41,397 nucleotides of DNA. Origin: Ruminococcus sp. GTDB taxonomy: Bacteria; Bacillota; Clostridia; Oscillospirales; Ruminococcaceae. The notes under the pieces are model-generated. The model saw nothing but the letters and a program-made list of their open reading frames with translations. It was not told the DNA's origin and did no database searches. The first letter of the stretch is position 1. Every line of letters begins with the position of its first letter. This document shows, one piece after another, positions 17,350 to 39,378 of the stretch. The position numbers and the translations under genes are program-made. Location: the NCBI GenBank assembly GCA_017470535.1, contig JAFUYP010000030.1:1-41397 (forward strand). Reading direction: 5' to 3'.

Positions 17350-18123
17350 TCAATCCATAAATCCTATCTTGATAGTATCAAACGGCAGAGCCTCGCCCTT
17401 GCTCTTGGTTATCGGCAGCTTCTGCTCTTCTGTAAAGCCTATCGTTTCGCCCGGGTTAAGGGTGACATCTTCAAGTATCACATACTCGGCTATCGACGTA
17501 AGGAAGGAATATAGCTCGCCCGGCTGTGCATTTGAGCCAAGCACCTCTATCTCGTCCTTGCCGAAATACTTCATTCCGGCAGTATAGCCCGAGAGCTTTC
17601 CGCCCTCTGTAAGATACATACCCACATGAATGACCACCGGCGTCGGGAACTCGCCGTGGTTCATGATGCTTGCCACCTTTTTGTAATAGCTGCTCTCATA
17701 TACTGTGGGGTATTTATAGATACCTATCGTGTTTTTGAGCGTCAGCATCGCAGCTGCGACCTTTGTGAATACCTCCGCCTGCTCTGTCTTTGTGCCGTTT
17801 TTGGACATTATCGCAATAAGGCAGTGCGCCTTGTGCTTTGCGACCTCGGCAGCTGCGTCCTTCCAGACCACGCTGTTTTTAGCGCACTCCTCCGCTTCAC
17901 AGTCAGGGACAGGGTTTGGCATGAGCGAGCAGGCAACAAGGAAGTCATTCACACGCATGACCACCGTGCCGTCCTTTACCTCGTCGTCTGAGATTTTCAA
18001 GTGCCACTCCTCTGTAAGTGCGTGGCGGAACCTCGGCCAGTCGAGATTGGCGTCGGTAAGAAGCACAAAGCCCATCATATTATCGGGCGTGAGCTTCATA
18101 TCATTTTCGTTTATATCAGCCAT
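17350..18123 (-). CDS. DUF4261 family protein
   Basis: A 257-residue soluble protein resembling DUF4261, a family of unknown function often found near polymorphic-toxin or surface-protein genes. Visible features are MMGFVLLTDANLDWPRFRHAL near the start, a central stretch of alternating helices and strands (DAAAEVAKHKAHCLIAIMS), and a C-terminal strand-rich region ending in PITKSKGEALPFDTIKIGF. ACGGAGGTAATAG precedes the ATG at 18123; an earlier in-frame start adds 11 residues that overlap the promoter -10. No function should be assigned. Confidence 0.7.
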   Translation of the reverse strand: MADINENDMKLTPDNMMGFVLLTDANLDWPRFRHALTEEWHLKISDDEVKDGTVVMRVNDFLVACSLMPNPVPDCEAEECAKNSVVWKDAAAEVAKHKAHCLIAIMSKNGTKTEQAEVFTKVAAAMLTLKNTIGIYKYPTVYESSYYKKVASIMNHGEFPTPVVIHVGMYLTEGGKLSGYTAGMKYFGKDEIEVLGSNAQPGELYSFLTSIAEYVILEDVTLNPGETIGFTEEQKLPITKSKGEALPFDTIKIGFMD

Positions 18124-18154
18124 TTCTATTACCTCCGTAATGCTTGATAAAAAC

Positions 18155-18183
18155 ATTATAGCATATTTTTATGTATTAATCAA
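18155..18183 (-). promoter_or_regulatory. Promoter of the DUF4261 gene
   Basis: TTGATT (18178-18183) and TATAAT (18155-18160) are 17 bp apart on the minus strand. The box overlaps the region where a longer reading frame would begin, which supports the downstream ATG. Confidence 0.7.
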
Positions 18184-18203: not shown

Positions 18204-18461
18204 TCAAGCGCTTTCCACAGCAGCTTTTTTATGTGTTTTTGGCAGACCCTTTCCTGCAAGGCTGATAGTATGTATCTGCCTGAAAGTCTCTGCATATTTT
18301 TTTGCATATTCATCAAAGCGCTCAGGCTCGTTCATCATCTTTTTGCCGACGACGTCCGCCTTGACCATTTCAAAAACTATGCCGCAGCTCTCCCCCACCC
18401 TTACCATGTCATAGGGGATAGCTGTCGGCACGCCGGCAAGATCCAGTGTCAGGCACATCAC
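18204..18461 (-). pseudogene. Fragment of an aminoglycoside-phosphotransferase-like protein
   Basis: About 85 residues remain. GVPTAIPYDMVRVGESCGIVFEMV and the following YAKKYAETFRQIHTISL resemble the N-lobe to middle of the APH-like family seen in clostridia (the TIGR02172 group). The ATP-binding start and the whole catalytic half with its HxD motif are missing. The fragment begins abruptly next to the terminator of the LRR gene and has no ribosome site or promoter of its own. It is best read as a decayed remnant, not a small gene. Confidence 0.65.
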
Positions 18462-19914: not shown

Positions 19915-19941
19915 GATATTTATTTAAAAAGGGTGATGAAT

Positions 19942-20223
19942 GTGTTTAGTGAAAGGATAAAGCAGCTGCGGCTGTCGCTGGGTATCAATCAGGTCGAGTT
20001 CGGGCGGCGGCTCGGTGTCAGCAAGCAGTGCATAAGCAACTGGGAAAACGGCAACATTCAGCCGTCGATAGATATGCTCAAAAAGATCGCAGGCACTTTT
20101 AAGGTCAGCAGCGATTTTCTTTTAGGTCTTGATGACCTCCGCTCACTTGATGTTACAGCCCTCACCACCGAACAGCTTTTTCACATTCAGGCTCTTATAA
20201 ATGACATCACGGCAAACAGGTGA
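19942..20223 (+). CDS. XRE-family helix-turn-helix regulator
   Basis: This is a 93-residue protein from the GTG at 19942 (MFSERIKQLRLSLG once initiated). The HTH_3 domain covers about residues 3-58 (RLGVSKQCISNWENGNIQPSIDMLKKIA), followed by a short C-terminal helix. AAAGGG lies 8 bases before this GTG; the ATG at 19936 is only two bases from it and is less likely. It is divergent from the LRR gene and ends before a terminator hairpin that has a near copy at the far end of the mobile element. It may therefore belong to a remnant of an earlier element rather than to the core chromosome. Confidence 0.85.
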   Translation: MFSERIKQLRLSLGINQVEFGRRLGVSKQCISNWENGNIQPSIDMLKKIAGTFKVSSDFLLGLDDLRSLDVTALTTEQLFHIQALINDITANR

Positions 20224-20260
20224 TACACCGTCCACACCCTTTATGACAGCATGAACCAAA

Positions 20261-20306
20261 AGAGCTATCCGATCCAATTCAAGGATCAGATAGCTCTTAG
20301 CTTTTT
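20261..20306 (+). terminator. Hairpin terminator, near copy of the element right-end hairpin
   Basis: AGAGCTATC with GATAGCTCT makes a 9-bp stem extended by GATCC/GGATC, then TAGCTTTTT. The same outer stem and tail occur at 29451-29495 at the right end of the element. It can terminate the XRE gene. Confidence 0.8.
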
Positions 20307-20319
20307 GCAAGAAAGAAAT

Positions 20320-20337
20320 GTTGACAAAACGTTGCCA
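20320..20337. repeat. Paired integrase arm-type boxes, outer left
   Basis: GTTGACA at 20320-20326 and GTTGCCA at 20331-20337 start exactly 11 bp apart. The distance from the first box to the core is 69 bp. A matching pair at 29536/29547 is 67 bp from its core and in the same orientation. Confidence 0.6.
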
Positions 20338-20388
20338 TGATAACGATTTGATAATGGCTTTTGGCGTGTTCACGCCCTATTTTTCGGG

Positions 20389-20407
20389 GCGTTTATTACT
20401 CCCACTC
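20389..20407. other. Attachment site at the left end of the element
   Basis: GCGTTTATTACTCCCACTC resembles 29603-29623 at the end of guaA, differing by a two-base gap and a few substitutions. The shared block TCCCACTC (minus strand GAGTGGGA) spans the last guaA codons Glu-Trp-Glu. It is the probable crossover region. Confidence 0.6.
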
Positions 20408-20508
20408 GCTCCTTGAACCGTAATCTTAACCAGTTTGAGTTAAGTTTTATCGCTCGTGGTATCTCTATTATCTCAGTTGTCTGTCAGATTTGGAGTATCT
20501 GATTTTTT

Positions 20509-20526
20509 GTTGCCATTGTGTTGCCG
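20509..20526. repeat. Paired integrase arm-type boxes, inner left
   Basis: GTTGCCA at 20509-20515 and GTTGCCG at 20520-20526 start 11 bp apart, 102 bp inside the left core. The spacing equals about one helical turn, as expected for tandem binding by the N-terminal domain of a tyrosine integrase. Confidence 0.6.
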
Positions 20527-20538
20527 GGGAACATATTG

Positions 20539-20567
20539 AGTATAGCGCAGAAAATTAATTCTGTCAA
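20539..20567 (-). promoter_or_regulatory. Outward-facing promoter at the left element end
   Basis: On the minus strand, TTGACA (20562-20567) and TATACT (20539-20544) are 17 bp apart, eight bases after the HNH gene stop. It points out of the element across the attachment site. There is no minus-strand gene before the hairpin at 20261-20297, so it may give a short non-coding transcript or serve the excised circle. Confidence 0.6.
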
Positions 20568-20574
20568 GTCCACA

Positions 20575-22188
20575 TTACGCCTGTATCATTTCAATATAAT
20601 TCAGAGGCTGTGCTAACACAGGCACACCGTCTGGGTTACGTCCCGTTTCAAACACTTTCTTCCAATAATCGTAGGTGTTCTTTCCAGAGAAGATCGTTTC
20701 AGCAAATTCTCTATTTTTCCACAAAGGAAGATTGACGAGATTCCTGATAAAGTTCGTGATGTTTACCCACATGGCTTCGTCAAACGGGATCTGGAATTCG
20801 CCGCCGTCTCCTAAAGGTTTTCCTTTACTCAGCAGCAGGAATCTGATCAGCTCTTTAAGGTATCCTACCCAATTACGCATTATTTCTTCCTTGGAGATAC
20901 GATATGCCGCTAAATGTGCATCTGTAATATCCGCAGCGTTATTCTTGATTATTCTTTGCTCTATACGATAAACGCCTATCTCAGGGTTAAATTTATCAAT
21001 ATAAATTTCCTCAGCAATTATATTAAGTAGGTGTATTATCTGCTTTTGCTCAATTTCACGAGGATTCTCTCCTTCGTCGATTCGATAATTGATCGGTGTT
21101 GTCAAAATTTTAGAACTGCTGAGAAGTATGGTTAAGAATGTCTTATCAAAAGCACTGTAAGAAATCGGCAATTCCTTAGCACGTCCCTCAAAATCTATGT
21201 ATGTTCTTAATTTATTATCGGGAGAATGTGTGATCTGATTCTTTATGCTGTTGATTATCAGCGTTTTCAGCGAGGCTTCTCCCTTAAAATAGTCTACCAA
21301 ATTCTGCTCTGAGAAGCTATAATCATCTTCTTGCAAATTATGTTCCTGCTGATATTTGCGGATTTTATCTTCATAGAGGGTATCATGAAGCTGCCGAAGA
21401 ATAGACTTATCAAATGCGATTTGCCTTAAGTTACTGCCTGCATTGGTATTGGTTACAATAAGTCTATCTACATCCGGCTGAATAAACAGACGAATCAATA
21501 GCTTTCTCTGCCCAAGAAGCAATTGCGCAACAGCTTTATGCTGACCGTCAAATATCTTGATCTTATTATCATCTAATCTCGCAAGAGATAAATGGAGCTG
21601 CGGATTCTTCTGATAGAATTCCTTAACAAGTTTATTGATGCTGCTGTTGATACCACGAGGATTGATCAACTCATCGTGATAAATGTATTCAATTGGCAAC
21701 TCAATAAAAACAGTCTGTTCCCCCGATAAACCATCGGTGAAAATAGGAACGGAAATGATATCTTCTTTTCCCATATCAGACAAGGTGTATTTAAAAACAC
21801 CGTTTTCTACCTTGTAATGAAGTTCAAACTTTGAACCACTAAGATACTCCAAAACATGGCGTAATGAGGCTGTTTCATTTTTGCTTTTGCCTAACTCTCC
21901 TGTTGAGATTTTTCGTCTGATCTCATCTAATACAGCTAAAGAACGTGCAACCGTCAGGTCAGCGTCCTGCTTTGATTTATTGCAGCTCTCATGTGTAAGT
22001 GCAAAATTATCTTCTGAGTCTTTTCCCCTATTCGCAAGAGGAATGATATGATCTATATTTGTAGTATGGATATCCAAATCAATAGGCTTTTGGCAGATGT
22101 AACACACACCATTCTGAATAGTGTGGAGTTTCTTTGTCAAAGCATTGTAATCATCTGTAGATAAATCTCTCAAATATTTTGAAGCCAT
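20575..22188 (-). CDS. HNH endonuclease with central DGQH (ParB/DndB-like) motif
   Basis: A 537-residue protein. The N-terminal HNH domain has zinc ligands Cys29/Cys32 and His66/Cys69, the metal-site IDHI (Asp46-His47), Asn61 and Asn70. Residues about 145-260 carry KIFDGQHKAVAQLLLGQRKL (DGQH at 214-217) and NTNAGSNLRQ, resembling the DGQHR/ParB-type domain of DndB and, more loosely, the DGQQR motif of GmrS (DUF262). The C-terminal 270 residues are helical and unrecognised. GGGAGG precedes the ATG at 22188; a longer start adds 16 residues. It has its own promoter and sits after a terminator next to the left end, a typical cargo spot. A nucleic-acid-cleaving defence role is inferred, not shown. 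Confidence 0.8.
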   Translation of the reverse strand: MASKYLRDLSTDDYNALTKKLHTIQNGVCYICQKPIDLDIHTTNIDHIIPLANRGKDSEDNFALTHESCNKSKQDADLTVARSLAVLDEIRRKISTGELGKSKNETASLRHVLEYLSGSKFELHYKVENGVFKYTLSDMGKEDIISVPIFTDGLSGEQTVFIELPIEYIYHDELINPRGINSSINKLVKEFYQKNPQLHLSLARLDDNKIKIFDGQHKAVAQLLLGQRKLLIRLFIQPDVDRLIVTNTNAGSNLRQIAFDKSILRQLHDTLYEDKIRKYQQEHNLQEDDYSFSEQNLVDYFKGEASLKTLIINSIKNQITHSPDNKLRTYIDFEGRAKELPISYSAFDKTFLTILLSSSKILTTPINYRIDEGENPREIEQKQIIHLLNIIAEEIYIDKFNPEIGVYRIEQRIIKNNAADITDAHLAAYRISKEEIMRNWVGYLKELIRFLLLSKGKPLGDGGEFQIPFDEAMWVNITNFIRNLVNLPLWKNREFAETIFSGKNTYDYWKKVFETGRNPDGVPVLAQPLNYIEMIQA

Positions 22189-22226
22189 TCTATTATCCTC
22201 CCAATGATATAATATCCTTATTATAA

Positions 22227-22255
22227 AGTATAGCATAAATTGACACGAAATGCAA
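22227..22255 (-). promoter_or_regulatory. Promoter of the HNH cargo gene
   Basis: TTGCAT (22250-22255) and TATACT (22227-22232) are 17 bp apart on the minus strand, just after the terminator of the mobilization genes. Confidence 0.72.
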
Positions 22256-22264
22256 GTAGAAAAG

Positions 22265-22297
22265 CTGAAAAAACTCCCGTTATTGCATAGCGGGAGT
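22265..22297 (-). terminator. Terminator of the mobilization operon
   Basis: ACTCCCG (22273-22279 complement side) pairs with CGGGAGT (22291-22297), followed on the minus strand by six T. It isolates the HNH gene from the relaxase/TnpV genes. Confidence 0.85.
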
Positions 22298-22314
22298 CCT
22301 TTCGTTATTTTACA

Positions 22315-22719
22315 TCACACATACACCATAGCCGCATACACAGGATCTCTGGCAATCAGGCGATCCATGTTCTCAAGACCTCTCGCTTTTGCAAGATCAC
22401 CGACTGCCACAGCTCTGAGATACTCGGTATCATTTTCGAGCATCATTCCGACCTGGCGTTCTATGGCTTCCGCTACGGAACGGTCAAGGTCGGTCAGGTA
22501 GCTGAGAATCATGCCGTCATTGACCAGCTTTTTCAGCCTTGCAGGGCGGTACTCCGCTGAGTAGTGCAGGTGATACTTGATGTGGTCGGAGCTGAACGTT
22601 GTCACGCTCGGCTCGGCATCGGGTGTGTTGTGGGTAACAGTCAGGGCATCGGTGTCGAGAACCCATACGGGCTTGTTCTTGCCGCCCACCTGAACCTTGT
22701 CTTTGCTTCTGATGATCAT
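22315..22719 (-). CDS. TnpV-like transposon-encoded protein
   Basis: The 134-residue protein begins with a small beta-rich module (MIIRSKDKVQVGGKNKPVWVLDTD). A helical C-terminus follows, containing YSAEYRPARLKKLVNDGMILSYLTDLDRSVAEAIERQV (about residues 55-95) and a final DRLIARDPVYAAMVYV. The helical part resembles TnpV proteins, found widely in clostridial mobile elements with no proven function. ATAGGAGGAATTATT before the ATG at 22719 decides the start. It follows the relaxase stop by 14 bases and is the last gene of that operon. Confidence 0.65.
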   Translation of the reverse strand: MIIRSKDKVQVGGKNKPVWVLDTDALTVTHNTPDAEPSVTTFSSDHIKYHLHYSAEYRPARLKKLVNDGMILSYLTDLDRSVAEAIERQVGMMLENDTEYLRAVAVGDLAKARGLENMDRLIARDPVYAAMVYV

Positions 22720-22733
22720 AATAATTCCTCCTA

Positions 22734-24023
22734 TTATTCCAGTCCCCACGATTTTTTCTTTCTGGTGGCGGACTGCTGTACTTCCTGTTCACGCTGACTG
22801 TGAACGTACTCCTGTGCCTGCTTGACCTCAGCGTATTTCTGCGGTTCAAAGCGTTTCAGCAGGCTCACGAACTCCGTCAGCTCATCGACCTCAGCTTGCA
22901 GAGAAGAAACATCACGGCGAAGCTCCGAGCATTCTCCCGAAGTCTGTTTCAGACGCTGACGCACATCTTCCGTTTCTTTCAGGCTCCTGTCAAGCCGTTC
23001 ACGCAGAGCGTATATCGTATCGCCGGACTTGTGGGTGCTGTCACTGAGCTTCTTCATGATCTTGCTCAGACGCTGTGCCTTGGAGATGATTTCGTCCGAA
23101 TGCTTCATGATAGACAGTTTTCCATCGAGCAGACTTGTGAGTTCTCTGCAAAGCTGCTCACACTCGTCCTCGACCTGAAACTCCTTTTCATAGTCGGGAA
23201 TGTAGTTGAGTATCGTCTTTACCTGATTGAGCTTGTCGTTGATCTCATGATCGAGATCTTCGCTCTGTGCTTGTTTGTCAGTAAGCTCAGCTTCGACCTG
23301 TGCTTTTTCTTCTTCAAGCGCCCTTATCTCATCCTCATGCTCACCATATTCCTCAACTGTGTAGCTGTAACCTCTGGACTTCTTCGGCTCGCTGATCTCA
23401 ATTCCGTGAGCGTTGCAAATATCCCTCAGCACTTCCCACTCACGAAGCCGCCAGCGGTTATTGGAGTGAGCGTCATTTCCGAAGCCCATTTCGTCAAGTG
23501 CCTTGTTCTTGGCATTGCGGACTTCAAGGCCCCTGCTGTAATGTCCGAGGGGGATATAGTCTATATGCAAATGCGGTGTGGCTTCATCGAGGTGCATGAC
23601 CGCATTGAACACATAGAGGTTCGGATTTCTCGCCTGAAATCCCTCCATGTATTCACGCAGGCACTCTGCCGTTATCTCAGCATCGGGAGTACCGACAGCC
23701 GAATCATTTTTCGTGCCAATATAGACGAGGTGTTCATAGAAACTTTTCTGCTTGTTCGCACCCTCGATCACGCTCTTGCTGGGTGGACGGTTGAACAGGT
23801 GTTCAAAGTAGTCACCGATCTTGCGATCATTCCTTTTCTGACGGGCGTTGTACCTCTCCACTGCTTCGTCAAAAAGCTGGTGGTAAGTTTCGCCCAAGTC
23901 CTGCTGAACGAACACGATGTTATCGGGTGTCCTGAGCGGGTCGATATTCTTGGCAGTGAACTCTCGGTTGTTATGCGAAAGGCTGCCTTTGCCCTCGCAC
24001 ATCGAGATAGATTTTGTACTCAT
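22734..24023 (-). CDS. MobV-family relaxase (Mob/Pre plasmid recombination protein)
   Basis: This enzyme nicks one DNA strand at oriT and leads it into the recipient. The 429-residue protein has the MobV metal-binding signature HxDExxPHxH at residues 144-153 (HLDEATPHLH). The N-terminal domain carries the relaxase fold up to about 230; the rest is a long charged coiled coil. AAGGAGA precedes the ATG. A 590-base non-coding region upstream contains a hairpin that fits an oriT. Transfer genes are otherwise absent, so mobilization in trans is expected. Confidence 0.93.
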   Translation of the reverse strand: MSTKSISMCEGKGSLSHNNREFTAKNIDPLRTPDNIVFVQQDLGETYHQLFDEAVERYNARQKRNDRKIGDYFEHLFNRPPSKSVIEGANKQKSFYEHLVYIGTKNDSAVGTPDAEITAECLREYMEGFQARNPNLYVFNAVMHLDEATPHLHIDYIPLGHYSRGLEVRNAKNKALDEMGFGNDAHSNNRWRLREWEVLRDICNAHGIEISEPKKSRGYSYTVEEYGEHEDEIRALEEEKAQVEAELTDKQAQSEDLDHEINDKLNQVKTILNYIPDYEKEFQVEDECEQLCRELTSLLDGKLSIMKHSDEIISKAQRLSKIMKKLSDSTHKSGDTIYALRERLDRSLKETEDVRQRLKQTSGECSELRRDVSSLQAEVDELTEFVSLLKRFEPQKYAEVKQAQEYVHSQREQEVQQSATRKKKSWGLE

Positions 24024-24214
24024 ATAATGTCTCCTTTTATATCTCTGTTTGAACCCTCTGACGAGGGATAATCATACGCATAAGGCTCACCGCCTATGCG
24101 ATGATGAGCGCCCTTGAAGGGCTTTTGAATTGGCTTGCAACGATACGGTGATCAGCAAACCAAACAGCGCGGAGCGCTGGGAATTTACTTGCGGTGTGCC
24201 GCCAGTAACCCCAA

Positions 24215-24260
24215 AGCACTTTTGACAGCCTATTCGGACTATCAAAAATGCTATTGTGGC
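24215..24260. other. Candidate origin of transfer (oriT)
   Basis: AGCACTTTTGACAG (24215-24228) and CTATCAAAAATGCT (24239-24252) form an inverted repeat with 12 of 14 matches around a 10-base loop. TATTGTGG follows. The layout of hairpin then TA(T/G)TGTG resembles the MobV oriT of pMV158-type plasmids, and it lies about 190 bases upstream of the relaxase gene. The nick position is not identified. Confidence 0.5.
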
Positions 24261-24294
24261 TCTGCGAGGCTGAACGGCTGGCTGAGCAGCCGAA

Positions 24295-24404
24295 AATGTG
24301 GGTACAATTTTACAGAAATCCACATTACATTTTATGGTTATCCCCCTGACACACCACATTTTTGCAAGCAAACAGGGCAGATGTGGTAAATTGGCGTGCC
24401 ACAT
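24295..24404. repeat. Five CCACAT boxes, iteron-like
   Basis: AATGTGG at 24295-24301, CCACATT at 24320-24326 and 24354-24360, ATGTGG at 24381-24386 and CCACAT at 24399-24404 occur in alternating orientation in 110 bases. Next to a mobile element with a RepA-like ATPase they may be binding sites for replication or relaxosome proteins. The rest of 24024-24611 has several other hairpins, including CCCCTCCCCTACG/AAGGGTAGAGGG near 24407-24435, and no convincing gene. Confidence 0.4.
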
Positions 24405-24611
24405 AGCCCCTCCCCTACGTAAGGGTAGAGGGTTGGGGGGTTGGTCGCCCCTTGCCAAGAACGCTGAATTACGGCTATCAGATATTCAGATATTGGTGTG
24501 TTAAAGGGATAATCATATTACATTTTTTGAAAAACATCATATCGGAAATGATATTTTTCTGCAAAAATCTCTGCTTGGATTTAGTAAAAACTCGCTCCGA
24601 GATCATAAAAA

Positions 24612-24794
24612 TCAGAACGGCGGCTCCACCTCGACATCGAGAGTTTCGAGCAGATACTTTACCTCATCACGATAGAGATAGCTCTCATATCCATCGAGGT
24701 AATGAATGTTGCGAGCAACAGCTTCACGAATATCAAGACCGCTTCTTTCTTCAAGGATAGAAGTCAGCTTTTCAACCTTTTCCATATCAGGCAT
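24612..24794 (-). CDS. Small element-encoded protein of unknown function
   Basis: This is a 60-residue acidic helical protein (LTSILEERSGLDIREAVARN, then YESYLYRDEVKYLLETLDVEVE). No family is recognised. GAAGGGGG lies about 9 bases before the ATG. It sits between the RepA-like ATPase gene and the oriT region on the same strand, so it is probably part of the element backbone. It could aid relaxosome formation or replication control, but nothing shows this. Confidence 0.65.
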   Translation of the reverse strand: MPDMEKVEKLTSILEERSGLDIREAVARNIHYLDGYESYLYRDEVKYLLETLDVEVEPPF

Positions 24795-24829
24795 TTTTTA
24801 CACCCCCTTCCCTATATTTTTCTCTACCC

Positions 24830-24903
24830 GTGACGATGCGTGTCGATGGTGACGGTCTTTTAGAGACCTCACAAACATCGTCACGACCGTCACACATCGT
24901 CAC
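24830..24903. repeat. Iteron-like GTGACGATG cluster after the ATPase gene
   Basis: GTGACGATG at 24830-24838 and GTGACGGTC at 24849-24857 are matched by inverted copies CATCGTCAC (24876-24884), GACCGTCAC (24885-24893) and CATCGTCAC (24895-24903). The two halves can pair into a long hairpin. Position just after the RepA-like gene suits a replication-protein binding site or a strong structural terminator. Confidence 0.55.
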
Positions 24904-24905
24904 GC

Positions 24906-26258
24906 TCAATAACTTGTAGCGAGAAAGTTTTCCTTTTCTGCATCAGTCATATCGTGAAAAGACTTGTTTCCGCTATCACCTCTGATATAACACACCGTTG
25001 CTTTCGGATCGCCATCAACAGGTTGATACTGAAACTCGTCCTCGGCAGTATCATCGGTATCCAATTCAGGTTCAACTATGATAGGGTGATCCTCGTCATA
25101 GCGGAGCGTGATCTTCCTGCCCTTGTGACTTCTGGAATTGCTGTACTGCACAAAGTACAAATTGTACAGCTTTCCAGCATTGACATTCAGTTTCAGCGAC
25201 AGGGCATTCGGCTTGATGTCAATCGCTAACTTTTCGATAAGTTCGGTAGCTGTACCCTCCCAAGTCGGATTGTCCGCATTGATGAAATTGCCGATCGCTT
25301 CAAGCACAGGTTCAGGCGGCTCCGTGTATTCGGGCGACTTCTCTCCGTTCAGTTCCCAACACAGCGTTTCTTTGTTTCGGGTGAGCATAAACTTCTTGTC
25401 CGGCTGATCTCTGCCCGATACCTCAATCGTCGCATCACCATCGGAACGCTTATTCTTATACATGATGAACGCTCCGTCCGCTGCACCGAGCAAACCGTTC
25501 GTGCCGGAGATGCGGTCGAAATTATCATCGGACTTTTGCTTGCGGGTGTGGTGAACGAGTATCAGACAGATACCCGTCCTGTCCGCAAACGCTTTCAGCC
25601 CTGCGATAATATCGTAATCACGGGCATAGCTGTAAGTGTCGCCCTCGGCTTCACGGACTTTCTGTAATGTGTCGATGATGACGACCGAGGTTTCGGGGTG
25701 TTCGTTCAGAAACGTACCGAGCTGATCGAGCAGTCCTTCGTTTAGCGACTTGGAAGCAACTGAAAAGAAAAGATCGGGTGTTGTCTCCGTTCCGAACATT
25801 CGATACAGGCGCTCCTGCAATCTGCGGTAATCGTCCTCCAATGCAAGATACAGCACCGTACCCTTGCGGACGGAATAGTTCCACATTGGTGTGCCTGAGC
25901 TGACATGATAGGCGATCTGAGCCATCATGAAGCTCTTTCCGACCTTTGGTGCTCCTACAAACAGGTAAGTGCCTGGGTAGAGGAAATGGTCAATGATCGG
26001 CGGTTTGCCTGGGTAGACCATCTCGTAAAGCTCCGGCATCGAAACAGTCTGCATAAAGCCGGGAGCAGCTTCACGCTCCGCCTGAGCCTGTGCCTGCATT
26101 TCCTGTTCATACTGCATCTGAGCCTCGAACATTTCCTCGGCTGAGGGGTTGAAATTTTCCCCATAGTCTGGTATAATAGTAGGTGTTAATTCTGATGACT
26201 GCTCTGCACCTGCGCCAACAGGTGCGTCAAGAGCGGTCATTTCTCTTTCTTCGGTCAT
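24906..26258 (-). CDS. RepA-like hexameric helicase-type AAA ATPase
   Basis: The 450-residue protein has an acidic, Gln/Ala-rich N-terminus (to about residue 65) and then a RecA/DnaB-like ATPase domain of the AAA_25 type. Walker A is GAPKVGKS (102-109), Walker B is SVVIIDTL (about 190-197), and a LVHHTRK sensor-like segment follows. Such proteins unwind DNA for plasmid or element replication. The C-terminal 130 residues may be a DNA-binding winged helix. Its start overlaps the mobC stop as ATGA. A cluster of GTGACGATG-type repeats follows its stop. Confidence 0.87.
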   Translation of the reverse strand: MTEEREMTALDAPVGAGAEQSSELTPTIIPDYGENFNPSAEEMFEAQMQYEQEMQAQAQAEREAAPGFMQTVSMPELYEMVYPGKPPIIDHFLYPGTYLFVGAPKVGKSFMMAQIAYHVSSGTPMWNYSVRKGTVLYLALEDDYRRLQERLYRMFGTETTPDLFFSVASKSLNEGLLDQLGTFLNEHPETSVVIIDTLQKVREAEGDTYSYARDYDIIAGLKAFADRTGICLILVHHTRKQKSDDNFDRISGTNGLLGAADGAFIMYKNKRSDGDATIEVSGRDQPDKKFMLTRNKETLCWELNGEKSPEYTEPPEPVLEAIGNFINADNPTWEGTATELIEKLAIDIKPNALSLKLNVNAGKLYNLYFVQYSNSRSHKGRKITLRYDEDHPIIVEPELDTDDTAEDEFQYQPVDGDPKATVCYIRGDSGNKSFHDMTDAEKENFLATSY

Positions 26259-26584
26259 TCTCTATCTCCTTTCAGACCATTCAGAGTTGTTGTAATGAGC
26301 TGTATCGTGGACAGCAGCTCATCGTCCACAGCAGAGCCGTTCTTGATTCTTCGCAGCTCACCGAGGACTTCCGCAAGCTGATTTTTCAGAGCCTTGTATA
26401 CTCTCGGATTGCCCTGCACGACTACATCACGGCACAGCAGCCGCTTCACGATGTAGTCCTGCTTAGTCAGTCCCGACAGTGCCACAGCCGAGTTGATGAG
26501 CTGATCTTCTTCGGGTGAGACACGGAAACCGATCGTCCTCGCCCGGAATCTGCCCTTGCTGTCAAGGTTTTTCGCTGACATCAT
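26255..26584 (-). CDS. MobC-like mobilization relaxosome protein
   Basis: About 109 residues, with a ribbon-helix-helix-like N-terminus (RTIGFRVSPEEDQLINSAVALSGLTKQDYIVKRLL) and a helical C-terminus (VYKALKNQLAEVLGELRRI). This arrangement matches MobC-type accessory proteins that help the relaxase open oriT. GGAGG lies 5 bases before the ATG at 26584; ATG at 26581 and GTG at 26590 are alternatives. It overlaps the integrase stop by about 20 bases and the ATPase start by four, so integrase, mobC and the ATPase form one compact operon. Confidence 0.75.
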   Translation of the reverse strand: MMSAKNLDSKGRFRARTIGFRVSPEEDQLINSAVALSGLTKQDYIVKRLLCRDVVVQGNPRVYKALKNQLAEVLGELRRIKNGSAVDDELLSTIQLITTTLNGLKGDRE

Positions 26585-27668
26585 CTTCACCTCCCTCCAT
26601 ATCCTCGCTTCTCAGGTCGCTGAGCCTGTCCGCCATTTCGTTCTGCGTACTGGGGAACAGGTGAGCGTAACGATAAGTGATGTCAATACTTTCGTGACCT
26701 ACTCTATCCGCTATTGCCACGGCAGAGAACCCCATTTCAATGAGCAGAGAGATATGTGAGTGTCTGAGGTCATGAATGCGGATACGCTTCACGCCTGATT
26801 CTTTCGCCCCTCTGTCCATTTCATGATGAAGGTAGCTCTTGGTTATCATGAACATACGGTCATGTTCTCCGATACCGTAGAGCTGACCGATGAAGTCCTG
26901 CATCTCCTGAGAAAGAAAATCAGGCATCTTCACAACACGGTTGCTCTTGGCGGTTTTCGGATCGGTGATAATATCCTGCCCCTTGATACGCTGATAGGAC
27001 TTTGTGATCGAGACCGTCTGCTTCTCAAAGTCGAAATCGGCAGGCGTGAGGGCGAGAAGTTCACCCTCACGGATACCGCACCAGTACAGCATTTCAAAGG
27101 CATAGAAAGAAACAGGCTTGTCCATCATGACCTCTGCAAACTGCTTGTACTCCTCCTGTGTCCAGAACAGCATCTCACGGTTCTTCGCTTTTCCCATATT
27201 GCCTGCCTTTGCTGCGGGATTGCTCGGAAGTCCGTAAAACTTGACTGCATAGTTGAACACGGCACTGAGCTGATTGTGTAGCGTTTTCAGATACACTGGT
27301 GAGTAGGACTTGCCTGTCTTGGTCGAGCCTTCGAGCATTTCGTTTTGCCACGCTATCACGTCTTTGGGCTGAATGTCGCACATTTTTCTTTTCCCGAAGA
27401 ACGGAATCAGCTTTGTGCGGAGGATATGCTCCTTGGTGTGCCATGTGTTGTCTTTCAGACGCTTCTTCATGTCCTCAAAGTATATCTCTGAAAAGCTCTC
27501 GAAGGTCATATCAAGGCTGGATTCCGTCTTGTTCATCTGCTCACGCTCCCACGCCTGAGCTTCTTTCTTTGTGGAGAAACCACGCTTCTGTGTCTGCTTG
27601 CGTTCTCCACGGCTGTCGGTGTAGCGATAGATCACACGCCACTTGTTGCCGTCTTTATAAACTGACAT
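26562..27668 (-). CDS. Tyrosine site-specific integrase
   Basis: A 368-residue tyrosine recombinase. An N-terminal arm-binding domain (YKDGNKWRVIYRYTDSRGERKQTQKRGFSTKKEA, residues 4-37) is followed by a SAM-like core-binding domain (about 55-150) and the catalytic domain. Catalytic residues are Arg200 (GIREGE), a Lys near 238-241, His299 and Arg302 (HDLRH), His325 (GHES) and the nucleophile Tyr334 (YRYAHL). All are present, so it looks active. AAAGGAAG before the ATG at 27668 decides the start. The paired GTTGCCA boxes near both element ends are its likely arm sites. Confidence 0.96.
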   Translation of the reverse strand: MSVYKDGNKWRVIYRYTDSRGERKQTQKRGFSTKKEAQAWEREQMNKTESSLDMTFESFSEIYFEDMKKRLKDNTWHTKEHILRTKLIPFFGKRKMCDIQPKDVIAWQNEMLEGSTKTGKSYSPVYLKTLHNQLSAVFNYAVKFYGLPSNPAAKAGNMGKAKNREMLFWTQEEYKQFAEVMMDKPVSFYAFEMLYWCGIREGELLALTPADFDFEKQTVSITKSYQRIKGQDIITDPKTAKSNRVVKMPDFLSQEMQDFIGQLYGIGEHDRMFMITKSYLHHEMDRGAKESGVKRIRIHDLRHSHISLLIEMGFSAVAIADRVGHESIDITYRYAHLFPSTQNEMADRLSDLRSEDMEGGEDDVSEKP

Positions 27669-27672
27669 CGTA

Positions 27673-27876
27673 TCACTTCCTTTCGCTGTCCTCAGCAGAA
27701 CCACCGTAGCAAGTCCTTTCGAGGAAGTACTGTCTGTTCACTCTGCCTGAGATCGTGATATATCCCTTGGCTTCAAGCTCCTTGTTGAGCTTCTGCACTA
27801 TCTTATAAGCATAGGACTTGGATACATCAAGCTCCCTGGCAACATCTTCTACTCTCATAAAATTTTTATCTGTCAT
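27673..27876 (-). CDS. Small winged-helix excisionase/DNA-binding protein
   Basis: A 67-residue protein with a helix-turn-helix of excisionase type (MRVEDVARELDVSKSYAYKIVQKLNKELEAKGY, residues 7-39) and a basic wing (GRVNRQYFLERT). Proteins of this kind, encoded just before a tyrosine integrase, direct excision. The gene ends four bases before the integrase start. AAAGGAGA precedes its ATG. It is the first gene after a strong promoter controlled by repeats that the divergent XRE protein may bind. Confidence 0.85.
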   Translation of the reverse strand: MTDKNFMRVEDVARELDVSKSYAYKIVQKLNKELEAKGYITISGRVNRQYFLERTCYGGSAEDSERK

Positions 27877-27928
27877 TAAGAGTATCTCCTTTCTCTGACT
27901 TAACTCTTAATCGTTAAGTTCTGTTTTT

Positions 27929-27957
27929 ATTATACTAAACATATATCGTTATGTCAA
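27929..27957 (-). promoter_or_regulatory. Promoter of the excisionase-integrase operon
   Basis: A perfect TTGACA (27952-27957) and perfect TATAAT (27929-27934) are 17 bp apart. The spacer overlaps a CTAAACATATATCGTTAT box that recurs in the divergent XRE promoter. CTTAA-TCG-TTAAG (27906-27918) lies just downstream. Confidence 0.9.
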
Positions 27958-27992
27958 GTATAAAATTACTAAACATTTTTATTTCTACTATC

Positions 27993-28022
27993 TTGACAAA
28001 CACTAAGCATATATGTTATAAT
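27993..28022 (+). promoter_or_regulatory. Promoter of the XRE-cargo operon
   Basis: TTGACA (27993-27998) and TATAAT (28017-28022) are 18 bp apart. The spacer contains CTAAGCATATATGTTAT, a near copy of the box in the opposing promoter. Confidence 0.85.
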
Positions 28023-28080
28023 TGATTTGTGAAATATGGCGGCGCAGATCGTCAGCCGATTGAAAATGGAGGGCAACAAT

Positions 28081-28578
28081 ATGGCAATAGGTGAGAGGAT
28101 CAGGTTTATCAGAAACCTCAGAGGTATGACGCAGAAGTTCTTAGGCTTGCAGGTCGGCTTCTCGGAACGGACAGCCGATATTCGTATGGCGCAGTATGAA
28201 TCAGGTTCGAGAACGCCCAAGGCTGACCTTGTAGAGCAGCTTGCCGATGCACTTGACGTATCGACCGAGGCTCTGAACGTACCGAACATCGACAGCTACA
28301 CCGGGCTTATGCACACGCTGTTTGCCTTGGAAGACTTATACGGCTTCAAGATCGACCGACTTGACGGGGAAATCTGTATCCGCATCAACAGGCAGAACGG
28401 TCCGACCTTTGCAAAGATGACAGGTCTGCTCGAACCCTGGGAGGAAATGGCTCAGAAGTACCGCAATGGGGAGATCAGCCGTGAGGAGTATGACCAGTGG
28501 AGGTACAGGTATCCGAGGTCGGAGGCGGAGCGGAATGGGACTGCCCGTAGAGCATTGAATGAGGAGAACAATAAATGA
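28081..28578 (+). CDS. XRE-family regulator of the element
   Basis: A 165-residue protein with an N-terminal HTH_3 domain (residues about 4-62: ERIRFIRNLRGMTQKFLGLQVGF, YESGSRTPKADLVEQLADAL) and a C-terminal domain of about 100 residues ending in a short linker-like motif (EISREEYDQWRYRYP). GGAGG lies 8 bases before the ATG. It is divergent from the excisionase-integrase operon and both promoters contain the same box, so it probably represses excision and itself. Its last codon overlaps the start of the next gene as ATGA. Confidence 0.88.
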   Translation: MAIGERIRFIRNLRGMTQKFLGLQVGFSERTADIRMAQYESGSRTPKADLVEQLADALDVSTEALNVPNIDSYTGLMHTLFALEDLYGFKIDRLDGEICIRINRQNGPTFAKMTGLLEPWEEMAQKYRNGEISREEYDQWRYRYPRSEAERNGTARRALNEENNK

Positions 28579-29444
28579 GAAAAACAATATTTGAGCAAAT
28601 CAAAGATAGAATTTCATTTGCATCAGAGATACAGCGTCTTGATAAACTAATAAATGATCCGAATGGAATTCGTATTGAAATACCAAATACTTTGTTTACA
28701 ATGACAGATAATGATTTTGATATTAAATACTATTCCTTAGAAGATTTTTTTGACGCCTTTATGTTTAAAACATGGAAAGCACGAGGAACTTGCATAAGTT
28801 GTGAAGATATGAGAGAAGCGCTCAATCTTGATGAAATACTGGATTCTGATGATCCTACATTTGAAGAAACGATTTCGTATTGCGAGTATGTTGCAAATCT
28901 CATCAAACTACATGATAGAGCAGAATTAAAAGAAGGTGTTCACTTCTATAATACAAGTGTAACTGTAGCTATTATCACTAACCTCAATTCGATAATGGAT
29001 TGGCTAAATCAGGAAATGGTCTTCTTTGAGAATGAAGAACGAGTTTTGATTACTGAGAAAAACGCCGCTGTCACCGCTGTAGCTGAATGCGTAGATGAAG
29101 AACTTGCATATCAAATAGTCAAATATAACCATTATACATTAAAAGGCGATATTTCGAAGAAAAAAGAAATACTCCTAAAACTTGGCAGCGAATTAGAACC
29201 TAAGCGCGGACAATTAAACAGTAAATTGGGAGACAACATATTCTTTATGCTCAACAATCTTAACATACGCCATAATAACAAAAGCAAAAAAGATAAGAAT
29301 TATAAAGAATACGTTGCTAAAATGAAGAAAAACAAACTTGAAGAATGGTATGATGAGCTTTATCAGATGATGTTGCTTGCAATGCTTGAATTAGAACAGG
29401 TTGAAAGAAATCAAAAGATAAATGAGTTAAAAACTCATTTCTAA
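28575..29444 (+). CDS. AT-rich cargo gene of unknown function
   Basis: A 289-residue soluble, mostly helical protein. It is acidic in the first half (ALNLDEILDSDDPTFEETISYCEYV) and lysine-rich near the end. The C-terminal MLNNLNIRHNNKSKKDKNY followed by a long helix (EEWYDELYQMMLLAMLELEQ) recalls HEPN-like abortive-infection proteins, but the usual R-X4-6-H motif is not clear. Codon use is far AT-richer than in the integrase or mob genes, pointing to separate acquisition. It is translationally coupled to the XRE regulator and lies just inside the right end of the element. A defence or toxin role is a guess. Confidence 0.75.
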   Translation: MRKTIFEQIKDRISFASEIQRLDKLINDPNGIRIEIPNTLFTMTDNDFDIKYYSLEDFFDAFMFKTWKARGTCISCEDMREALNLDEILDSDDPTFEETISYCEYVANLIKLHDRAELKEGVHFYNTSVTVAIITNLNSIMDWLNQEMVFFENEERVLITEKNAAVTAVAECVDEELAYQIVKYNHYTLKGDISKKKEILLKLGSELEPKRGQLNSKLGDNIFFMLNNLNIRHNNKSKKDKNYKEYVAKMKKNKLEEWYDELYQMMLLAMLELEQVERNQKINELKTHF

Positions 29445-29450
29445 CAAAAA

Positions 29451-29495
29451 AGAGCTATCCGATTCGTAAATTGAATCAGATAGCTCTTAGCTTTT
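29451..29495 (+). terminator. Right-end hairpin terminator
   Basis: AGAGCTATC with GATAGCTCT, extended by GATTC/GAATC, then TAGCTTTT. It terminates the cargo gene and has a near copy at 20261-20306. The inner stem bases differ but still pair, so the structure has been conserved. Confidence 0.85.
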
Positions 29496-29515
29496 CAGAC
29501 AGAAATTTTATAACT

Positions 29516-29553
29516 GTTGCCGATGATAGAGAAATGTTGCCAAATCGTTGCCA
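29516..29553. repeat. Integrase arm-type boxes at the right end
   Basis: GTTGCC at 29516-29521, then GTTGCCA at 29536-29542 and 29547-29553, the last two starting 11 bp apart. The pair is 67 bp from the core at 29603. Confidence 0.6.
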
Positions 29554-29602
29554 TTCAGCTTAACTACGCCACGAAAAGTACGGTATTACGCTGTTTCAGC
29601 AA

Positions 29603-29623
29603 GCGTTTGTATCATTCCCACTC
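29603..29623. other. Attachment site at the right end, inside the guaA 3' end
   Basis: This segment covers the last guaA codons and the bases just after the stop, and matches 20389-20407 with a two-base gap. The shared block is TCCCACTC. Integration here preserves the guaA reading frame, since the far copy also encodes Glu-Trp-Glu-stop. Confidence 0.6.
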
Positions 29624-31150
29624 CACCGTCCCCGGCGGTTTGGAAGTAATATCATACACTACCCTGTTGACGTGCTCCACCTCGTTGGTCAGGCGGTTGG
29701 ATACCCTTGCTAAAACATCGTAGGGTATCTTTGCCCAGTCGGCGGTCATGAAGTCATCGGTCGTTACCGCTCTTATCGCTATAAGGTGGTCGTAGGTGCG
29801 GTGGTCGCCCATTACGCCTACTGTCTGGACGTCGGGCAGCACTGCGAAGAACTGGCTGAGCGTGTCCTCTATGCCGCTCTTTTTTATCTCGTCACGGAAA
29901 ACAGCGTCCGCCTCCTGAAGCACCTTTATCTTCTCCTCGGTTATCTCACCGATTATGCGTACACCAAGTCCGGGACCCGGGAATGGCTGGCGCCATACAA
30001 GCTCTTTGGGTATGCCGAGCTTTTCACCGACTCTCCTTACCTCGTCCTTGAACAGCTCGCCCAGCGGCTCGATAACACCGTCAAAGGTTATATCCTCAGG
30101 CATCTTCACCTGATTGTGGTGTGTCTTTATCGTGGCGGCATCACCCTTGCCGCTCTCTATCCGGTCGGGATAGATAGTGCCCTGTGCGAAGAACCCTCCG
30201 TCAGCCTGCTTTCTTATCTCGTCCCAGAAGACCTTATAAAACTCTGAGCCTATCGTCTTTCTCTTCTGCTCGGGGTCGGTGATGCCCCTGAGCTTTTCGA
30301 TAAACTGTGCGCCGCAGTTTACCCTTACAAAATTCATATCAAAAAGACTTGTGAAGGTCTTTTCCACAAAGTCGCCCTCGTCTTTTCTCATAAGACCCTG
30401 ATCGACAAAAACGCAGGTGAGCTGCTTACCGACCGCACGGCTGAGTAATCCTGCTGCGACCGACGAGTCAACACCGCCCGAAAGCCCCAGCACTACCTTT
30501 TTATCGCCTATCTGCTCTTTGAGCTGTGCAACAGTGCGCTCTATAAAGTCGTCCATCACCCAGTCGCCCTTGCAGGCACATACCTCAAAGAGGAAGTTGT
30601 GCAGAAAAGCCTTGCCGAACTGTGTGTGCGTCACCTCGGGGTGGAACTGTACGGCGTAGAGCTTTCTGCCCTCGTTTTCCATGGACGCACACGGGCAGTC
30701 CGCCGAGTGAGATGTTATCTCAAACCCCTCGGGCGCTTTTGATATGTAGTCGGTGTGGCTCATCCATACAACGCTCTTTGTATCGACGCCCTTGAAAAGC
30801 AGGCTCTCACGCTTTGTGTTCTCTATCTCGATCTTGCCGTATTCGCTGTTTATGCAGCTTTCCACCTTGCCGTCACACATCCACGCCATGAGCTGTGCGC
30901 CGTAGCAAATGCCCAGCACAGGTATGCCGAGGTCAAGTATCTCCTTTGAATAATGCGGCGATGACATATCATACACAGAGTTCGGACCGCCTGTGAATAT
31001 TATGCCCTTGTAGCCTGCCGCCTTTATCTCTTCAAGCGGTGTTTCAAAGGTCTTTATCTCGGCGTATACATTCTCGTCACGCACACGCCTTGCGATGAGC
31101 TGATTGTACTGTCCGCCGAAATCAAGAACAAGTATTTTCTCAAAAGACAT
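29612..31150 (-). CDS. guaA: GMP synthase (glutamine-hydrolysing)
   Basis: GuaA converts XMP, ATP and glutamine to GMP. The 512-residue protein has the class I glutamine amidotransferase domain with nucleophile Cys82 (GICYGAQ) and the His-Glu pair in QFHPEVTHT. The ATP-pyrophosphatase domain follows with its P-loop [11 protein letters not shown], then the C-terminal dimerisation domain ending [20 protein letters not shown] before the ATG at 31150 decides the start. Its 3' end is the integration site of the neighbouring element and the gene remains intact. Confidence 0.97.
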
Positions 31151-31176
31151 AGGCACATTCCTTTCAAAAACAATAT

Positions 31177-31201
31177 CAGCACCCATTCTCCCCGGGTGCT
31201 G
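31177..31201 (-). promoter_or_regulatory. Leader hairpin before guaA
   Basis: CAGCACCC and GGGTGCTG form a perfect 8-bp stem with a 9-base loop between the guaA promoter and ribosome site. The run of T (ATTGTTTTTG) begins a few bases later, so it could act as a weak attenuator. No purine riboswitch fold is visible. Confidence 0.55.
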
Positions 31202-33421: not shown

Positions 33422-35122
33422 TCAGCTCATCGGCCACGATTTAAGATCCGGCATCTCGTCAAGCGTCAGCACACGCTCGTGATCTACTATCTTCTTGAAG
33501 AAATCAAGGTCGTTATGCTCGCTTCCCAGCTGATAGTCTTTAAGCGCAAACTCGCCGTTCCATGTGCAGAAGAACGACCACCTGATACCCTCGCTGAAGC
33601 ATGAATCAGGGTCAGGTATACTGCTGTTTTCGGTCATAGCGACTATCTTGTTCTTTGTGGGCGTGCCCTTTGTGTAATCCCACAGGCTCTTCTGCGGTGA
33701 GTGGTCGCCGTGTACCTCGGGGTAGCTGTCGTAGCCGACTATATCCACATACTCGTCACCGGGGTAGTAGTCAACGTTCTGTCCGTTCCACACCCAGATA
33801 AGGTTATTGCAATGGTGAACATTCGTCAGTCTGTCATACATCAGCTTCCACAGCTCCTTGTATGCTTCCGCTCCCGATGAGCCCCACCAGAACCACGGGT
33901 TGTTCCACTTGGGGTCGCCGCCGCCCTCGTGCAGCGGTCTCCACAGTACAGGCACATGGTTATCATCAAGCTCCTGCAAATACATGGCTATCGCATCTAT
34001 ATCCCTTATAAGATAATCATAGCCCTTCTGATCCTCGCCGCTCAAAGCCTTTGCAAGTGAGAAGCTCGTCTTGTCGGAATAAAAGCCCTCCCACCATGCA
34101 GCGCCGTTCACTTCAAGGTAATCCTCGGGTGCGTTCCAGTGCCAGCAGATAGTCACGATACCGTTTTGGTCGTACCAGTCCTTGGCGGTCTGCACTATCA
34201 GACCGGGCGATGAGCCGTGATACTGGCGGCTGGGGGACGCCTCTATCAGGTCAAGACCCATCATAGCCGGGTACTTGCCTGTCTTTAAATTGTACTCATC
34301 AAACTCAGGGCTTTCAACTCCCCTGTTGTCAGCAGCGTACTGACCCGAGATCATATACTTGCCGTACACATCACACAAAAAGCTGTAAAGCCTTTTAGTT
34401 TCATCCGACGCATCAGGGTTCACAAGCGTCTTTTCCACATCAAACTGTGTAAGATCGACAGGCTTTGCAGCCGTCACCTTTAAGCTGTCAACAAAGAAGC
34501 TGCCGTTTTTGGCCTGAACACCTATCTTGTGCTTGCCCTTTTTCACATTTACCTTTTCAGCAACGCAGTCGGTAAATTCCTTTTCATTGACTATGAACGT
34601 GCTTGTCTGCTCGCCGTCAACGGTTATGAAATTCTCATTGTTTGAGTTTGAGCTTGCAGCCCTTACGACAAAGTCATAGCTGCCGTCAGCCGGGAACTCA
34701 GCCTCAAATTCAAAAGCATCTCCGCCCGAGCCGAGTGCTATATACCCGTCGCCTGTGAACTTGCCGAATATCTCCTTGTCAACAGTCTTTGCCGAGCCTG
34801 AGAGCTTGCATTTTTCAGCCTCCTCAGACACCTCAAAATCCTCCGGCACGTCTGACTTGTTCTGTACCTCTGACAGATCAAAGCCGCCGGTAGTTTCTGT
34901 CACCTCGGGCGCAGGTATCTCTTCCCTCTCCCTTGATGTCACAACAGTAAACGAGCTGTCATCGCCGCCTGCGGCGCTGTCCGCTGCCGATGATGCGCTG
35001 CTGTCAGCCCCCGACTCAGACGAGCCTGCTGACGATGATGACTGATCGCCGCAGCCGCTGAAGATCAGCATAACAGCCGCCGACAAAGCGCATACCGAAC
35101 GATAAAATAGTTTTTTCTTCAT
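33422..35122 (-). CDS. Lipoprotein beta-mannanase, CBM plus GH26
   Basis: A 566-residue enzyme. Residues 1-24 are a lipoprotein signal with Cys24 in FSGC. A Ser/Ala/Asp-rich linker runs to about 75, then a CBM35/6-like carbohydrate-binding module (about 95-220, GDGYIALGSGGDAFEFEAEF and FFVDSLKVT). The GH26 catalytic domain covers about 240-560. The acid/base is Glu399 in RPLHEGGGDPKWNNPWFWWG and the nucleophile is Glu498 in AMTENSS. It cuts beta-1,4-mannan or glucomannan at the cell surface. AAAGGAATG precedes the ATG. The serine-rich linker after Cys-Gly-Asp resembles that of the SGNH lipoprotein at 8794-9669. Confidence 0.93.
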   Translation of the reverse strand: MKKKLFYRSVCALSAAVMLIFSGCGDQSSSSAGSSESGADSSASSAADSAAGGDDSSFTVVTSREREEIPAPEVTETTGGFDLSEVQNKSDVPEDFEVSEEAEKCKLSGSAKTVDKEIFGKFTGDGYIALGSGGDAFEFEAEFPADGSYDFVVRAASSNSNNENFITVDGEQTSTFIVNEKEFTDCVAEKVNVKKGKHKIGVQAKNGSFFVDSLKVTAAKPVDLTQFDVEKTLVNPDASDETKRLYSFLCDVYGKYMISGQYAADNRGVESPEFDEYNLKTGKYPAMMGLDLIEASPSRQYHGSSPGLIVQTAKDWYDQNGIVTICWHWNAPEDYLEVNGAAWWEGFYSDKTSFSLAKALSGEDQKGYDYLIRDIDAIAMYLQELDDNHVPVLWRPLHEGGGDPKWNNPWFWWGSSGAEAYKELWKLMYDRLTNVHHCNNLIWVWNGQNVDYYPGDEYVDIVGYDSYPEVHGDHSPQKSLWDYTKGTPTKNKIVAMTENSSIPDPDSCFSEGIRWSFFCTWNGEFALKDYQLGSEHNDLDFFKKIVDHERVLTLDEMPDLKSWPMS

Positions 35123-35136
35123 AAGCATTCCTTTCG

Positions 35137-35973: not shown

Positions 35974-36085
35974 TACCACACCCCCCTTTTTTAGTTAACA
36001 GGTAACAGTTATTGCGGCGCTGCAAAAGCAGCGCATATATACATTTATAATATCTATACACAACTATATATAATTACACATCTTG

Positions 36086-39301: not shown

Positions 39302-39378
<77 letters not shown>

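Follow-up and report, generated by a model that had tools for sequence, protein, structure and literature searches.

The guaA locus

We analysed the 3' end of guaA (GMP synthase) on a contig of Ruminococcus sp. (JAFUYP010000030.1, assembly GCA_017470535.1), the whole 41,397 nucleotides of which are called the window below. Identical copies of an 8-bp core, TCCCACTC, at 20400-20407 and 29616-29623 form direct repeats bounding an element, E2, which reaches into the last codon of guaA (Table 1). Immediately left of E2 sits a block with the same build as E2's own right end, namely a hairpin, a pair of heptamer boxes at a step of 11 bp and the core. An earlier note, made from the letters alone, had described this order as occurring twice in the same orientation, and all of its pieces were present; both blocks could be aligned with a score of 78, while 300 pairs taken at random from this contig reached 31 at most. 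The third pair that the note had placed inside the left end of E2 was found as well, 108 bp beyond the CCCACTC heptamer of the core, and a search of the whole window for GTTGCCA-like pairs at step 11 (at most two mismatches in total) gave these three sites and one two-mismatch match on the opposite strand at 28071. The different distances from boxes to core reported before (67 and 69 bp) resulted from a longer core definition and disappeared when measured to CCCACTC, both pairs starting at -81 bp (20320 to 20401; 29536 to 29617). Likewise, the boxes named at the right end were correct, with a further GTTGCCG at 29516 overlooked. The left block is without this distal box; at this point the relatives G001, G002, G005 and G034 (handles with G or L are our own) have right ends that are about 26 bp longer. 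The first box of the left block shows a one-base difference from relatives.

E2 has the composition of an integrative and mobilizable element (IME): its own integrase (Int) and excisionase (Xis, scoring under the curated cut-off), mobilization genes (Mob_Pre relaxase, NikA-like MobC) and defined left and right attachment sites (attL and attR, the 8-bp repeats at 20400 and 29616) are present, and no conjugation (type IV secretion system) genes were detected among the nine E2 open reading frames (ORFs) searched with Pfam. Among the named records in the matches listed, the closest integrases are those of L131 and L135, both 97% identical and from Ruminococcus metagenome-assembled genomes, where the left end of E2 also recurs (95% identity over 156 bp and 99% over 135 bp, respectively).

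Table 1. Features at the guaA locus; positions and strands are those of the window.
Feature	Position	Strand	Basis or remark
XRE gene XRE1, claimed piece of E1	19933..20223	+	HTH_3 4.2e-16; origin unproven
E1 relic right end, subtype B (as G004, G005, G034, L131)	20251..20399	+	sequence comparison
E1 right-end hairpin	20260..20298	.	z -5.6 on + strand
E1 right-arm box pair	20320..20337	+	GTTGACA/GTTGCCA (20320/20331), step 11, -81 from CCCACTC
Left core TCCCACTC	20400..20407	+	composite junction where the right end of E1 meets the left end of E2
E2, 9,216-bp IME	20400..29615	.	8-bp direct repeats, gene content, relatives
E2 left-arm box pair	20509..20526	+	GTTGCCA/GTTGCCG (20509/20520), +108 from CCCACTC
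Cargo, 553-aa HNH-nuclease protein	20575..22236	-	Pfam HNH 1.3e-8; DGQH-like motif (by eye)
Mobilization relaxase, Mob_Pre / MobV-like	22734..24023	-	Pfam 2.2e-13; MobV 7.9e-8, under NCBIfam cut-off
AAA_25 ATPase	24906..26258	-	Pfam 2.5e-25
MobC accessory protein, NikA-like	26255..26590	-	Pfam 3.6e-11
Tyrosine integrase with N-terminal arm-binding domain	26562..27704	-	Phage_integrase 2.4e-18, Arm-DNA-bind_4 1.3e-15 (Pfam)
Excisionase, ICEBs1 Xis-like	27673..27876	-	NF047858 3.8e-16, under curated cut-off
XRE regulator	28036..28578	+	Pfam HTH_3; same position in several related elements
289-aa cargo protein	28575..29444	+	no family match (Pfam, PADLOC, NCBIfam)
E2 right-end hairpin	29450..29488	.	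z -6.7 on + strand; terminator-like on guaA strand
Distal right-end box GTTGCCG	29516..29522	+	seen in sequence
E2 right-arm box pair	29536..29553	+	GTTGCCA twice (29536/29547), step 11, -81 from CCCACTC
Right core TCCCACTC	29616..29623	+	within guaA 3' end
guaA (GMP synthase)	29612..31186	-	E2 right end provides last codon's final base and stop codon

The left block as the right end of an older element

For comparison, 52 guaA flanks, the best 80 of 590 Int-similar loci and 50 stretches around further integrase matches were examined. Positions 20251-20310 of the left block aligned at 47-51 of 60 bases with the guaA-abutting right ends of G001, G002, G004, G005 and G034. Hairpin and box pair were present in five of six same-genus relatives (beside guaA in G001, G002, G004 and G005, at the far side of a tandem in G006), and among 36 guaA 3' trailers, including the window's own (three of 39 were left out as too short), 18 contained an exact 7-mer repeat at step 11 and at most four at every other step from 8 to 25. 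The stretch between boxes and core comes in subtypes, that of E2 resembling G001 and that of the left block G004, G005 and G034. G034 belongs to another genus and its GuaA protein is just 58% identical, yet the left block is conserved there at 88% over 95 bp and adjoins genes for Xis (88%), Int (83% over 81 aa, truncated where the contig ends) and XRE proteins. L131 is a single element with an E2-like left end, the 97% identical Int and a subtype-B right end, and a second element of this kind, L137, has a right end 84% identical to 20315-20407. From its presence on integrase-bearing elements in other hosts and the subtype match, the left block is, as judged by sequence, the right end of a sister element, E1, and neither host DNA nor a copy of E2's own end.

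The earlier note had proposed a search for an empty guaA site and for single versus tandem elements, which could be followed as far as a reconstructed site and tandems in G006, G010 and others. When E2 was removed in silico (20251-20400 joined to 29617-29760), the E1 end and guaA met seamlessly as in relatives, with 73/81 identities in the arm region and 123/144 on the guaA side for G005, 70/81 and 115/144 for G004, and 71/81 and 90/144 for G034, and with no gap at the joint in any of them; G001 and G002, which have ends of other subtypes, matched at 51/81 only. Before E2, guaA ended with GAG TGG GAG TAA, the last four bases coming from E1, and with E2 it ends with GAG TGG GAA TGA, leaving the protein the same. 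GuaA thus stays intact because each incoming right end provides the final base of the last codon and the stop.

The left core therefore joins one element's right end to the next element's left end, the order found in tandem accretion, and similar arrangements were detected elsewhere. In G010 (3 contigs) three cores and three integrase genes lie within about 25 kb at guaA, and in G006 a relic right end is followed by a 10.4-kb element, so that right ends of the same build are found about 8, 10 and 20 kb from guaA within these tandems. After de-duplication, 17 of 43 left cores had another element's right arm on their far side, a lower bound, as the rule missed the far side of L131, where a hairpin is present along with a GTAC-type pair at -81, and, given how the sequences were chosen, no population frequency.

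From the pair of right ends with a core in common, the site that closes seamlessly once E2 is taken out, the integrase-bearing elements with an end of the E1 type and the independent tandems, we consider it highly probable that an older guaA element was reduced to its right end and that the sister IME E2 then integrated at the same core, between the E1 end and guaA. This agrees with the earlier note, which had taken the arms on both sides of the left core as one element inserted beside the right end of another. E1, specific for guaA, would have integrated into the 3' end of the gene and lost all recognisable parts except hairpin, right arm and core before E2 arrived. For E2, Int would bind the paired boxes via its N-terminal domain, pair the core with CCCACTC of guaA and recombine, Xis would drive excision, and the MobC/relaxase pair together with a helper element would move the resulting circle.

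Alternative explanations and points against

An ordinary host sequence downstream of guaA, i.e. a terminator and trailer older than any element, might also look like the left block, and each of the six same-genus relatives indeed has one hairpin on its guaA contig in a pattern search (the pattern misses the window's own left hairpin). In addition, G004 and G005 keep the block beside guaA with no integrase nearby, which is literally the arrangement that the earlier note had named as speaking against its proposal. We read both as decayed relics because other hosts have the same block on elements with an integrase; G004 retains a 36-aa piece of MobC and DNA of the XRE2 region. As the block is also missing from the guaA trailers of many relatives, occurs far from guaA within the tandems of G010 and G006, and is kept beside guaA, Int and Xis in the other genus despite the divergent GuaA, a host origin appears very unlikely. 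If E2's own right end had been duplicated locally, this would account for the same hairpin and boxes, which are 77-78% identical over about 80 bp, but not for the core-proximal part, which is unlike that of E2 and agrees with G004, G005 and G034 (subtype B) at 70-73 of 81 positions; we regard such a duplication as even less probable. Hardly any weight can be given either to a larger E2 that starts at the left hairpin and has one hairpin per end: similar hairpins do flank the element, but in direct orientation, and the match to E2's left end starts at the core in L131, L135, L137 and L140, with nothing matching 20260-20392 just outside, even if in L136 it begins at 20381.

Several observations count against integration of E2 beside an older E1. 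The window comes from a draft assembly that is 76% complete, for which a chimera is possible from sequence alone, and G003 has a hairpin only, about 0.7 kb from guaA and without boxes. E1 is recognised by about 150 bp alone, and its left end was not found in the window: left of the E1 right end there is no GTTGCCA-like pair and no CCCACTC, though a left end using a different box code and having an altered core would escape this search. Having a right end alone, E1 also differs from a cis-mobilizable element (CIME), which retains attL and attR without integration or transfer genes. Finally, the right ends without integrase in G004 and G005 show that such ends outlast their elements and can persist for long, so the one in the window cannot date E1. 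The hairpin probably ends the guaA transcript, and acting as guaA terminator is a possible reason for this persistence; in the terminator listing, the E2 hairpin was terminator-like on the guaA strand and the E1 hairpin was not listed.

Among the other relatives, a right end with hairpin and boxes in G025 (L023:16997-17656) has no CCCACTC core in the stretch shown and soon joins the interior of an E2-like element, likely as a deletion product of a tandem. An element of G010 (C3, near 1889071) combines GTTGCCA-type left arms and a degenerate core with GTACTCA right arms and is apparently a mosaic of two elements. Related elements also adjoin the 3' end of a short gene resembling guaA (L155:7002-7982, where it encodes 326 aa ending KPVGTIEWE). 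In 19 of the best 80 of the 590 loci the guaA match spans just 0.91-0.95 kb at 46-51% identity, the ORF having been read for L155 alone, and G016 and G088 have a full guaA match and a second, weaker one on the same contig.

Attachment-site geometry

Around core-like heptamers on the same strand, a right pair (-79 to -83) was found in 89 of 358 cases and a left pair (+108 to +110) in 32 of 358, compared with neither in 106 cases on the opposite strand and a rate below 0.001 at random places. After removal of duplicate junctions there remained 109 unique right pairs at -79 to -83, most of which (100) start at -81 or -82, and 44 unique left pairs at +108 to +110. Because the search was confined to distances of -84 to -78 on the right-arm side and +106 to +112 on the left-arm side, and to heptamers fitting G[TC][TA]N[ACT]CA, this constancy is partly by construction; a wider trailer scan led to GCTATCA pairs about 10-20 bp further out in G012, G072 and G078 and to other heptamers in G011 and G023. 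At the left junction of E2 the arms (right at -81, left at +108) are spaced as in an attP site, because E2 would have used the attR of E1 as its target. Such an exact anatomy of core and arm pairs could allow automatic delimiting of these elements.

Arm-box heptamers and integrase residues

The box heptamer varies from element to element, and left and right heptamers were equal in 34 of 37 elements and unequal in three (permutation mean 19.2; none of 20,000 permutations as high). Across junctions, equal codes were observed in 2 of 17 cases, where permutations gave 5.5 on average (P 0.013), or in 3 of 17, where they gave 6.2 (P 0.03), when the one-base variant of the window was counted as equal. 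This points weakly to an avoidance of same-code stacks; the stack loci were found mostly by similarity to the E2 integrase, and short-read assemblies, which break between near-identical elements, would hide same-code stacks.

In 78 integrases (partial, identical and unlabelled ones dropped), the columns that best told the code were 39, 25 and 23, with 1.30, 1.29 and 1.14 of 1.46 bits (next column 0.89), all within the arm-binding domain. Beside GTTGCCA, R23 with Q or S39 was found in 49 of 50 integrases, T39 in all 15 beside GTTGTCA, and Y23 in 10/10 beside GTTATCA and 2/2 beside GCTATCA. For residues 23-25-39 this corresponds to R-V/I/L-Q/S for GTTGCCA, K/R/M-Y/C-T for GTTGTCA, Y-M/L-C for most GTTATCA and Y-Q-L for GCTATCA. 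Exceptions are the distal Int of L147 (Y-M-C with a GTTGCCA right arm), a Y-S-V integrase with one GTTATCA right arm, the Y-Q-L integrase of G006 (left GCTATCA but right GTTATCA), the L185 Int at 18813 (Y-S-M with a GTTGCCA left arm, perhaps its neighbour's) and T39 in the single GTACTCA case. At 0.7-0.8 catalytic identity, the mean identity of the arm domain was 0.75 in pairs sharing a code and 0.63 in pairs with different codes, and the nearest arm-domain neighbour had the same code for 70 of 78 integrases (shuffled mean 36, maximum 52). On an integrase tree that leaves the arm domain out, and in which 17 of the 74 inner branches have good support, 11 code changes are needed. Supported independent pairs differing in GTTGCCA versus any other code (n = 4) were concordant in their residues three times and showed no difference once (p 0.25), and both GTTGTCA versus GTTGCCA pairs were concordant (p 0.5), the two comparisons being underpowered.

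The arm-binding domain consists of three strands and a helix according to PMC8138268, and residues 23, 25 and 39 presumably face the DNA. They appear to form a recognition code tracking the box heptamer, a co-variation that makes arm-site recognition directly testable. More generally, guaA elements may share a common core and nearly one att geometry and carry private arm addresses (the heptamer twice at step 11, at both ends) read by these residues of the Int arm sheet. Different addresses would then allow several elements to stack at one site and be excised separately, and same-address stacks may be selected against, the window with its decayed older end being an exception; we see the arguments for and against this wider scheme as evenly balanced.

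Cargo and neighbouring genes

For six proteins PADLOC indicated no convincing defence system, and the PADLOC and NCBIfam matches of the 553-aa protein were confined to its HNH region. The AAA_25 ATPase is presumably RepA-like, and a small ORF at 24612-24794 had no PADLOC or NCBIfam family match. Rfam at the gathering threshold gave a tRNA at 39302 alone for the whole window.

The XRE1 gene had been taken as a surviving piece of E1, an unproven assignment. Its end lies 35 nt ahead of the E1 hairpin; in relatives, the preceding ORF, where there is one, ends 1-9 nt before the hairpin in 14 of 19 cases and 13-49 nt before it in the other five. Seven XRE1-like matches were obtained from beyond the window, none of them located at any of the listed hairpins, and with XRE-type genes in 41 of 41 genomes the assignment was dropped. 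The same applies to a leucine-rich repeat (LRR) gene, as LRR matches near guaA in G004, G005, L155 and L243+L244 showed no clear linkage.

In the window, guaA and the elements lie between an SseB-like gene (17350-18156) and the stretch 33422-35979. In G001, G004 and G005 the SseB-like gene adjoins a gene matching 35137-35979 in inverted relation, and the surroundings of guaA are thus rearranged between these genomes and the window. A TIGR02172-type fragment (18204-18461, profile positions 52-123 of 226) is found between the SseB-like and LRR genes. About 170 bp at 1788-1961, without an Rfam match at the gathering threshold, recur in whole or in part, at 69-92% identity, in G002, G004, G005, G006 and G008 and are possibly a dispersed non-coding repeat.

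Comparison with known systems

The structure chains 6en0, 6emy and 6emz ('Int protein'), which we take to be Tn1549 Int, match residues 192-272 of the E2 integrase only. Tn916 has DR2 arm repeats. Arm-binding, core-binding and catalytic domains were all detected in E2 Int with Pfam, and by likeness to the IntTn916 subgroup (PMC8138268) it would belong there; strict specificity of insertion is lacking in Tn916 and Tn1549, whereas E2 Int was found at guaA. Among the titles and abstract starts listed from open-licence literature, no report on guaA elements of Ruminococcus or an arm-box code was found, which is weak evidence of novelty.

As a target, guaA is known from ATE-1, the Brucella IncP island and GIsul2 (PMC5704250) and from the streptococcal Tyr_3 family (PMC5357655). 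E2 shares with these IMEs and islands a tyrosine integrase and the guaA 3' end, but their hosts differ, and the likeness is one of target and integrase type. Both papers describe tandem accretion of IMEs, integrative and conjugative elements (ICEs) and decayed elements, with accretion in attR beside decayed elements and chimeric att sites (PMC5704250; PMC5357655). Decayed partners, to which the E1 relic is comparable, are described as common there, whereas our system concerns Ruminococcus-like and other Clostridia, has no detectable older attL, and has its arm boxes and geometry mapped. E2 on E1 is a case of tandem accretion, a published phenomenon, at the published target guaA, and illustrates how the end of one essential gene can turn into a docking site where mobile elements stack up in gut Clostridia.
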